35,658 bases of DNA from Gemmatimonadota bacterium (GTDB lineage Bacteria > Latescibacterota > UBA2968 > GCA-2709665). The position numbers and the translations under genes were made by a program. Positions 14,982-18,300 of this stretch are shown piece after piece. Position 1 is the stretch's first letter; every line of letters begins with the position of its first letter. The notes under the pieces are model-generated. The model did no database searches, had not been told where the DNA came from, and saw nothing but the letters and a program-made list of their open reading frames with translations. The DNA lies in contig PAQK01000012.1 in assembly GCA_002709665.1 (NCBI GenBank), forward strand, positions 132,723 through 168,380, in the 5' to 3' direction.

Positions 14982-15473
14982 ATGGAACTCATCTCATTCG
15001 CCAGAAGTGGGGACCAGGAAGCCTTCACATCTCTCATGAGATCGCACGAGGGCGGAATACAGTCATTCTGTCGGAGATTCACAAAAAAACCGGATGACGC
15101 TGAGGACCTCGTCCTCGAAACATTTGTCGAGGCGTATCTAAAACTGAATCAACTGCGCAACTCTGAGGCCATTGCACATTGGCTCCGATCGATCGCACGC
15201 AATCTCTGCAGATCCTGGTACCGCAAACAAAGAATGGGATCGCCTTCGTTTTCCTCCGACCCATAAGCCTCTGACGAGGGTGCGGAGGTCCAGTATGACC
15301 GGATCGTGTTCGGGATGGACCGGATGAGTTCATCTCATCGACGCGTCCTAGATCTGCACCACCAGGCAGGCCTGTCGTATTAGGAAATCGCGGCGTTCCT
15401 GCAGATCGCGCCTGACACGGTGAACAACAGGCTGCGATCCGCTCGGAAACAGCTGAAAAAGGAGTTACTGACA
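14982..15473 (+). pseudogene. ECF-type sigma-70 factor segment, broken by two stop codons, in frame with ankyrin protein
   Basis: From the ATG at 14982 (AGGAT about eight bases before) the frame reads a sigma-70 region 2: SFARSGDQEAFTSLMR, then KKPDDAEDLVLETFVEAYLK (the core and -10 recognition segment) and HWLRSIARNLCRSWYRKQ. A TAA at 15264-15266 ends it. The same phase continues through a linker, then region 4 (RVLDLHHQAGLSY, EIAAFLQIAPDTVNNRLRSA), with a TAG at 15381-15383 exactly where SYxEIA normally has Glu. Without the two stops it would run straight into the ankyrin gene at 15474. It is either a pseudogene with two nonsense changes and no frameshift, or a sequencing artefact. No anti-sigma gene is next to it. 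Confidence 0.7.
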
Positions 15474-17225
15474 ATGGCAAAAAGACAGCTGTGCGAAAAC
15501 GCACCGTCACGAGACGAAACTTTCGCGAAGGTAGTCGGGATCTGCAATGCCGCTCAATCCGGCGATCTGAATCACGTCAAGGAGATCCTTGCGAGCAAGC
15601 CAGAATTGGCGCATCGAGATGGAGATCAGGGATACCAGGCGATCCATTACGCGGCAAGGGAAGGACAACTGGCAGTCATAAAATGCCTTTTGGAAGCAGG
15701 CGCAAGTCCTAGTCGCATAACCTACCGGGAGCGTGTGTCTCCTATCGATATGGCTCGAGGCAAAGGGCACGCTGATGTAGCGGATTATATGGAAGCGTGG
15801 CGAGCCGGGCAGACAGGAGAATCGGATGAAGGAATTACGCTTTGCGAAGCTGCAGCAAACGGAGATCTCGACGGTATCAAAAGGCAACTCGAGATTGAAC
15901 CCTCCGCAGTTCACGCTTTGGACAAAAGTGGAAATACGGCGTTGCATGTGGCAGTGGAGCGTCATCACGTATCTGTGGTTTCGGAACTCCTGGACCGTGG
16001 TGCCGACCCGAATCAGACGAATCTGGAAGGGAAGCGTCCAATCCACCTCGCACTCGGACCCAGACCCAAACGGGGTTGGGATCCGCCTCCCAGCCCCCTG
16101 TGGCCGGTAATTGGTGGGATGCTGATAAGTAGAGGCGCTGAGTATGATCTGTGGGTGGCCTCTGCCATTGGCGATGTGAACCGAGCGCGAGAAATCCTCC
16201 AATCCGAGCCTGACGCTGTGAATGAATGGGCACGGAACTACCCGAGCATCGACGGTTACCCTCTCTCCATCGCTTCGTGCAATGGACATCTACCTGTTGT
16301 GAAGCTGCTCCTCGAACTGGGCGCCGATCCGGATACTCCTTACCAGAAGGATAGAGGCTACCCGGTAGATGAACGAGGTGCGCCCCTGCTATGGGCGGCC
16401 ATCAACAACGACCTGGAGATGGCAACATTGCTCCTGGAGCACGGAGCCTCTGGTCATACGGTCATGGATGCGTCCGGCAATGCGCTCAACCGAGCGATCT
16501 CCCACGGCAACGAGGCGATGGAAAAACTCTTATTGGGACACGGGGCGATACCGGGCTACGGCGGGAAGGTCAGCCCAGGTTTCTATGCACAAAACAGTGA
16601 CAACATCACCGTGGACGCTGCCCTGTTGAAGTCTGGCCCGTCTTGTGTCTATGACGTCCTTCAGGGCGCCGTCTTGGGTGGACATCCCGATCTCGTAGCC
16701 CTGTGTCTCTCGCAAGAGCCGGAGTTTTCAGAGAGCCAAATGCACGACCTACTGGGCCTTTCCATGCGATTGTGGCGATTCCGTTGCCCTCTAAACCCGG
16801 GCAAGGCGCTTGCGGAGCACTTCTATGAGTGTTTCGAACGCTTGTTGGAACATGGATTCAATCCAAATGCACGCGCAAAGACGAGCGGCTTGACGCCTCT
16901 TCAATGGACAGCGGGTATCACCTGGTATGTCAGTGAGGAGGATCGGATCGTATTTGCGGGAAAGTTACTGAATCACGGGGCTGACATCAATCTACTGGGT
17001 GGCGAGAGGCAGTCAACCGCCCTCACGATGGCTGTCCAGTACGAATGGCCAGAACTTGCTAAATACATGCTGGAGGCTGGTGCAGACCCCAATCTGGCGG
17101 GCACCGATTGGGAAACACCTCTGGCGTGGAGCGAGAAGCCACAGGGAAATATGCTTTATTCCCGTATGGATACAGAGGTAAGCGATATGGGTGCGTTACT
17201 CAGAAGATACGGTGCAAAGAAGTAG
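15474..17225 (+). CDS. Ankyrin-repeat protein (formerly C-terminal part of a sigma factor-ankyrin fusion)
   Basis: 583 residues from the ATG at 15474, which has AAGGAG nine bases upstream, so it could be made on its own even though the sigma part is broken. About ten ankyrin units are visible, for example GYQAIHYAAREGQLAVIKCL, NTALHVAVERHHVSVVSELL, GYPLSIASCNGHLPVVKLLL and STALTMAVQYEWPELAKYML, many ending in (L/G)xxGADPN-type turns. The C-terminus closes with an ankyrin-like cap (ALLRRYGAKK). Ankyrin repeats bind partner proteins. In the fused form they might have sensed or tethered a regulator of the sigma factor; that is inference. No signal peptide or membrane segment is seen. Frame continuity with the sigma region above is exact. 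Downstream lies a decayed kinase gene. Confidence 0.85.
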   Translation: MAKRQLCENAPSRDETFAKVVGICNAAQSGDLNHVKEILASKPELAHRDGDQGYQAIHYAAREGQLAVIKCLLEAGASPSRITYRERVSPIDMARGKGHADVADYMEAWRAGQTGESDEGITLCEAAANGDLDGIKRQLEIEPSAVHALDKSGNTALHVAVERHHVSVVSELLDRGADPNQTNLEGKRPIHLALGPRPKRGWDPPPSPLWPVIGGMLISRGAEYDLWVASAIGDVNRAREILQSEPDAVNEWARNYPSIDGYPLSIASCNGHLPVVKLLLELGADPDTPYQKDRGYPVDERGAPLLWAAINNDLEMATLLLEHGASGHTVMDASGNALNRAISHGNEAMEKLLLGHGAIPGYGGKVSPGFYAQNSDNITVDAALLKSGPSCVYDVLQGAVLGGHPDLVALCLSQEPEFSESQMHDLLGLSMRLWRFRCPLNPGKALAEHFYECFERLLEHGFNPNARAKTSGLTPLQWTAGITWYVSEEDRIVFAGKLLNHGADINLLGGERQSTALTMAVQYEWPELAKYMLEAGADPNLAGTDWETPLAWSEKPQGNMLYSRMDTEVSDMGALLRRYGAKK

Positions 17226-17289
17226 AAGATTATGCGGCCGATTTTATCTGTAGGCCTATGTTCAATCCAACAAATTTTACTCAGCAACA

Positions 17290-18300
17290 AGATGTGCTAT
17301 CCTGGCTGGAGTGATCTTCTGCCTGAGTACCTACATCCCACAAACAGATTGGTCCAAGTGGAAAAATACGATCAAACCATCGTGGATCTAACGGCGCAAA
17401 GGATGTCCGAACTCTTTGGCGGACCCGTCAGGATACACGCAACGGAGCGATTCGAGAGCGACAGAAAGTGCTTGCTTCGATGTCGGATTTCTCACGATCC
17501 CCAGGGCACACCCTCGACTATTGTGATCCAAGCATCTGCCATCCTAGTCGGTAGAGGAACCCACCCAGAATGACCACCTCCGTTTACTAAACAAATGGGC
17601 TGGATTGAAATTCCTGACAGATTTGCCCAGTGGGACTGACTTGAGCACTGAATTGTATGTAGGAGATCGTGATCACAAACTGATGATACTTGAGGACCTT
17701 GGCGAGTGTGGTCCACTGATGGGCCTGTTGCAAGGGGACGTGGAGGAAGAGACAATTGAAGCCTTTGAGCGATTCGGTGCCTTGCTGGGCCAATTGCACG
17801 CTGCTACGTTTGGAAGGGAGCGGAAACTGAATGAGATCAAAGCGAATTTGGGGCTCACGTCACTCCCTCTCGATAACGCCAGTCGAGATATCCGGACAGA
17901 CCGCCCGAATCTAAAAAGTCATTTTGAGAAACTCGGCGTGGAGACTTCCAATGGCTTCGTTGAAGAGCTCGAATAGGTTTAGGGTGTGCCCATTGGGCGC
18001 TGACAAAATTTGTTGGATGGTGTAATTCTGTTCTGATGAACGCACCGGGCCTTGATGCGCTATACAGACCAGTAGACGCTGTTCGGTGGCAAAAGCACAT
18101 TGCCTGGACGGAGGCTTTAATCAAGACCTCTAAGGAATTTCAGTGCCTACCACATATCCGCACAACACTCTCCAGGGTAATCCTCTCCTTAGGTGCACGC
18201 TCCCCTGATGTTGACCCCCTGGGGAGTTTTCCGGCCTTTTCACAGACAGAGGGAGGGTTGGGCCTGTAGCGATCTGAATTTGACCAAGAACGAGTCGTCG
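17290..18300 (+). pseudogene. Aminoglycoside phosphotransferase (APH)-like kinase pseudogene
   Basis: Two plus-strand segments in different phases join into one recognisable N-lobe. The first (to 17573) reads TERFESDRKCLLRCRISHD and TPSTIVIQASA. A frameshift near 17545 then moves to the second (to 17976): EEPTQNDHLRLLNKWAGLKFL, YVGDRDHKLMILEDLGECG and ALLGQLHAATFGR. This is the order of the ATP-binding lobe and hinge in APH-like small-molecule kinases. The downstream C-lobe, including the expected HGDxxxxN catalytic loop, is not in any open frame; fragments such as LFTDRGRVGPVAI near 18240 may be its remains. It is almost certainly non-functional. Its original substrate is unknown. Confidence 0.7.

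Follow-up and report, generated by a model that had tools for sequence, protein, structure and literature searches.

Sigma-factor and ankyrin parts of the window gene

The window, the whole stretch of 35,658 nucleotides that was analysed, shows on its forward strand (14982-17225) a gene that can be read in a single phase over 748 codons, with internal stops only at codons 95 and 134 and a terminal TAG at 17223 (Table 1). Translation and Pfam searches confirmed the description given in an earlier note on this DNA: sigma regions 2 and 4 and an ankyrin array in one phase, interrupted by a TAA at 15264 and a TAG at 15381. In the joined translation, with X at the stops, Sigma70_r2 matches residues 18-84 (E-value 7.7e-12), Sigma70_r4_2 matches residues 113-158 (1.2e-7) and Ank_2 matches five stretches (2.2e-42); all three exceed the curated Pfam cut-offs, and these E-values place both sigma regions and the ankyrin part far beyond chance. 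The segment 15474-17222 alone reaches 146 bits with Ank_2 (gathering score 27.3; E-value 4.5e-43), and the tail is an ankyrin repeat protein, with several Pfam ankyrin repeats over the gathering score. No Pfam match to TPR was found in the window protein. The TAG occupies the variable x of the SYxEIA motif and not the conserved Glu, where the note had placed it; that Glu follows directly as an intact GAA codon (15384-15386). The Shine-Dalgarno (SD) sequence AAGGAG at 15459-15464 precedes the ankyrin ORF as described there, with the ATG at 15474, and an alternative start, GTG at 15420, also opens this ORF, with 601 codons. Since the TAA at 15264 and the TAG at 15381 break the continuous coding of regions 2 and 4, the window gene itself falls outside the definition of an ECF sigma factor.

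Table 1. Features of the sigma-ankyrin locus, in window positions.
Feature	Position	Strand	Evidence
Region 2 of sigma-70 with the beginning of the linker (residues 1-94, up to the TAA), of the HEAT-tailed ECF type	14982..15263	+	Sigma70_r2 7.7e-12; nearest relatives G015:C47 (55%) and G020:C29 (50%); clade 100/99.9
In-frame TAA, codon 95, in the linker between regions 2 and 4	15264..15266	+	Direct reading
Remaining linker and first half of region 4, probably of the HEAT-tailed ECF type, residues 96-133	15267..15380	+	Identity counts, residues 111-133
In-frame TAG, codon 134, x of SYxEIA; at or beside the putative recombination joint (~15378-15401)	15381..15383	+	Direct reading; best relatives shift between residues 133 and 140
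Remainder of region 4, with the recognition helix, probably of the ankyrin-tailed ECF type, residues 135-164	15384..15473	+	61% to G001 (region 4 and linker); segment identities
Shine-Dalgarno AAGGAG, 9 nt before ATG 15474, inside the sigma C-terminus (KKEL)	15459..15464	+	Sequence; strength partly due to the encoded amino acids
Ankyrin tail ORF, 583 codons, relic leader MAKRQLCENAPSRD; probable free-standing product	15474..17225	+	Ank_2, orthologs, pN/pS, AlphaFold2

Downstream of the tail, ORFs in two frames (17232-17573 and 17605-17976) are possibly a second broken gene; no Pfam match, and no relative in 15 related genomes, was found for them. Other ECF-like genes of the window genome show an in-frame TAG or TAA: L003 (G000:C29), L007/L008 (G000:C19, C35) and L012 (G000:C60), so ECF decay may be genome-wide there. 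Locus L238 (G000:C41:15000-28000) contains several short ankyrin fragments in different frames, which look like degraded ankyrin genes.

Intact fusions in relatives and descent of the window copy

The joined window translation (X at the stops) was searched against 100 related genomes, followed by six-frame ORF analysis; for the collection scan an alignment of the closer members was used, as the wide alignment was too diverse. This search, proposed in the earlier note, revealed single ORFs of about 750 codons with the sigma part and the ankyrin tail in at least nine other loci (L083/L018, L085, L086, L091, L092/L043, L093, L020, L089/L047 and L095, the last running to the contig end), and the sigma-ankyrin fusion is therefore a real architecture. 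The doubt raised there, that homologs might never join the two parts, is thus removed. L083/L018 belong to the same taxonomic family as the window genome, and L071 shows a more distant intact sigma-ankyrin ORF. The architecture is centred on one class of Latescibacterota: homologs are deposited mostly as Latescibacterota or Gemmatimonadetes/Gemmatimonadota, and a few as Poribacteria, Handelsmanbacteria or uncultured. The intact homologs are ECF (group 4) factors, with regions 2 and 4 and a short linker and without regions 1 and 3, and TIGR02937 (sigma70-ECF; cut-off 42.9) matches L083 with 67.6 bits and L092 with 83.9 bits. Between the sigma part and the ankyrin array they show a conserved junction motif, MAKxxLxxxAPSRD. 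In all of these loci (at least nine) an extension follows region 4 in the same polypeptide, and its fold was modelled for L083 with AlphaFold2 (mean pLDDT 79.1, pTM 0.59): in the model sigma region 2 is folded, a long helix extends from region 4 across the junction, and the tail is a helical repeat array whose PDB matches are ankyrins and DARPins. ECF tails of many kinds were also observed in one ORF at loci L052, L065, L067, L068, L223, L227, L231, L232 and L044 of related genomes: TPR, FliG_C, TPR plus HATPase, GNAT, ankyrin plus ATP-synthase-like, LRR, FliM-like and HEAT.

The sigma factor with its own ankyrin array proposed in the note is thus real in homologs, but two later stops in an otherwise intact fusion do not describe the window gene: region 2 and, probably, half of region 4 derive from the HEAT-tailed ECF type. 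Residues 1-133 are nearest to L045 (G015, 55%) and L044 (G020, 50%), both ECFs with HEAT-repeat tails, and the others reach at most 41% among the matches listed. In the tree of sigma fronts the window, L044 and L045 form one clade (support 100/99.9), and grouping of the window front with the ankyrin-tailed sigmas was rejected (p-AU 1e-31). Residues 111-133 share 13/22 identities with L044 vs 2-6/23 with ankyrin-tailed ECFs, whereas from residue 135 the nearest relatives are ankyrin-tailed ECFs, with 61% identity to G001 over region 4 and linker. For the second half of region 4, identities number 10-11/16 and 12-15/22 with the nearest ankyrin-tailed sigmas vs 7/16 and 6/21 with the HEAT type, and the window tail lies among the ankyrin tails at 100/100. 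On these sequence affinities the window gene is a chimera of a HEAT-type sigma front with an ankyrin-type region 4 half and tail. The joint is probably inside region 4, beside the TAG; over 46 columns neither placement was rejected (p-AU 0.159 and 0.227). That the window gene is just a decayed intact fusion was rejected, since its sigma front belongs to another ECF type. No HEAT-tail donor or reciprocal recombination product was found in the window genome.

The sigma front is broken in 3/3 known carriers, all with open tails: by two stops in the window, by a TAG on a conserved Trp in L044 and by a frameshift in L045. A true gene that is an intact fusion, its stops due to errors of sequencing or assembly or its contig wrongly joined at region 4, is improbable: the genome is a MAG with 8.8% estimated contamination and the joint sits in a motif common to both ECF types, but there are two independent stops of the substitution type, L044 and L045, both known relatives of the front, are also broken by a stop or a frameshift, and the reading register is kept at a joint which lies inside a 225 kb contig.

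Separation of the sigma half and persistence of the tail

Damage of the sigma half with an open tail was found in several related loci. L094, L100, L234, L021 and L046 show a frameshift in the sigma half, with or without deletion, L087 a frameshift at the junction, L053 a TGA in the sigma half, and L019 a single TAG in region 4. L019 is 83% identical over 760 residues to the intact L020, and the comparison reads as a clean recent inactivation. Tail loss is represented by L233 and L236, whose sigma ORFs (221 and 210 codons) stop shortly after the linker, and L235 shows a frameshift at the beginning of the tail. Sigma lesions outnumber tail lesions 11 to 2 (binomial 5e-6; 10 to 3 in a cautious count, 7e-5), a count that is biased and unusable as proof because the loci were found partly through their tails, which favours intact over broken tails. 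In the tree of 42 tails the window and the sister-genus orthologs G002-G005 group together at 100/100, and the states "tail alone" and "sigma present or relic" require 10 changes, at least nine of them forced by starred branches. The tail tree gives no direction of change; loss is suggested as the direction by the relic leader and by pairs of sisters, for example the broken L094 and the stand-alone L102.

Lesions of this kind also bear on the idea that the stops are read through by recoding or suppression, giving a regulated full-length protein, which is very improbable and was rejected. The frame is open across both stops and TAG is common among the internal stops of the relatives; against this, read-through would be needed at two different stop codons, the relatives have their lesions at scattered places, many of them frameshifts, and TAG also terminates the window ORF at 17223, where the homologs end too.

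The four sister-genus orthologs (G002-G005) contain the tail alone, from the same start Met and with 68-69% identity to the window tail; before this Met lie an SD-like stretch and a few codons left over from the sigma C-terminus. The same leader is present in other stand-alone tails (L090, L096, L098, L099, L102 and L106). No upstream gene in common was found between the window locus and the stand-alone orthologs. Over 583 codons the window and sister-genus tails show pN 0.19 and pS 0.72-0.75, and their dN/dS of 0.05-0.10 is only indicative because dS is near saturation; within the sister genus, with dS unsaturated, the tail has dN/dS 0.12-0.24. By these substitution patterns the tail is under purifying selection. 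AlphaFold2 predicted a helical repeat array for the window tail (mean pLDDT 79.8, pTM 0.61), and the tail end at 17223 coincides with the ends of the homologs. The suggestion that the ankyrin gene may work alone is very probably right, given the homologous ATG of the stand-alone orthologs and the selection on the tail.

It is unlikely that the whole locus is a decaying pseudogene whose ankyrin frame is open by chance or only recently lost its function, with no product. Two stops within 133 sigma codons, the in-frame stops of L003, L007/L008 and L012 in the same genome and the downstream ORFs (17232-17976), which may be one gene split over two frames, agree with such decay. Opposed to it are 583 codons without a stop, with a chance of about 2e-4 at the stop rate of the sigma half, differing sites at about 60% of third positions vs 15-22% of first and second positions relative to the sister genus, and the stand-alone tail from the same Met in four sister genomes.

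Proposed control by the tail and comparison with known systems

The reading that we consider probable is a one-component ECF with a controlling ankyrin tail, of which the window copy has a chimeric sigma front ended by two stops and a tail kept by selection. Intact members contain sigma regions 2 and 4, the MAKxxLxxxAPSRD linker and a C-terminal ankyrin array of about 550 residues, which most likely binds a partner protein and so restrains or frees the sigma part. Judged by ECF42 and ECF57, the tail is most likely the signal-receiving part, and we infer that it controls the sigma part in intact members. In the window, recombination within region 4 would have brought the front of a HEAT-tailed ECF, and the stops at codons 95 and 134 end translation before the recognition helix, so that no working sigma factor can be made. 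The tail, kept by selection, would be translated alone in this cell, from the ATG at 15474 via the SD within the old sigma C-terminus; the targets of the free tail may be a partner, other sigma factors or a host.

A more tentative extension, which we regard as possible but rather doubtful, is that sigma-ankyrin genes are dual-product, the junction Met with its SD in the region 4 C-terminus yielding a free ankyrin protein beside the full-length sigma factor. The six intact fusions tested show SD matches of 5-7 nt before the junction Met, a weak excess over synonymous resampling (mean 6.0 vs 3.65 expected, Fisher p 0.02), and Lys/Glu codons account for much of this SD; broken copies show no SD excess at the junction (p 0.51). 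With dual products the free tail would have its own job, and lineages could therefore repeatedly shed the sigma half and keep the tail. If true, some "eukaryote-like" ankyrin proteins of sponge-type symbionts would be freed sigma-factor domains.

ECF42 factors show a large C-terminal TPR extension of about 200 residues, essential for activity and believed both to bind a partner and to control the sigma factor (PMC8999054). An ECF sigma factor with a large C-terminal repeat domain is common to both, but here the repeats are ankyrins over about 550 residues and the sigma half is repeatedly separated or lost; membership in ECF42 was rejected, since the tail is ankyrin and the window protein is without a TPR match. 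The repeat tails of ECF42 and ECF57 are thought to bind a partner and change the sigma conformation (PMC8999054); ECF57 also has a tail of the protein-binding repeat type (PMC8999054), WD40 there and ankyrin here. In ECF41 and SnoaL-tailed ECFs the C-terminal extension regulates the sigma factor without a separate anti-sigma factor (PMC8999054, PMC8103513); it also lies behind the ECF part, but it is a small ligand-binding fold there and a solenoid here. MzaA (NCBIfam NF041931; MZA anti-phage system, sigma-70 family by name) is the only named family met here that apparently pairs sigma-70 with ankyrin-like repeats, as its name and profile suggest. Membership was rejected (64-80 bits vs a cut-off of 800): only about 70 ankyrin residues align, near the profile N-terminus, and the sigma part is without a match to NF041931. 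The literature search, whose scope lay outside the main ECF re-classification, revealed no family of ECFs with an ankyrin tail. Papers on Poribacteria, PAUC34f and sponge-associated Latescibacterota (PMC3909097, PMC7081726, PMC12993501) note ankyrin proteins without mentioning sigma factors, whereas the stand-alone ankyrins described here carry a relic of a sigma-factor C-terminus.

ECFs with regulatory C-terminal tails are already known, and the ankyrin-tailed kind would be a variant of these. The Latescibacterota class seems to build its ECFs modularly, combining sigma fronts that resemble one another with ankyrin, HEAT, TPR, LRR, GNAT, FliG-like and kinase-ATPase tails, and the window would catch a swap and a sigma loss under way. 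It also suggests, in a form open to test, where some free-standing ankyrin proteins of symbionts came from: they may be sigma-factor tails set free.
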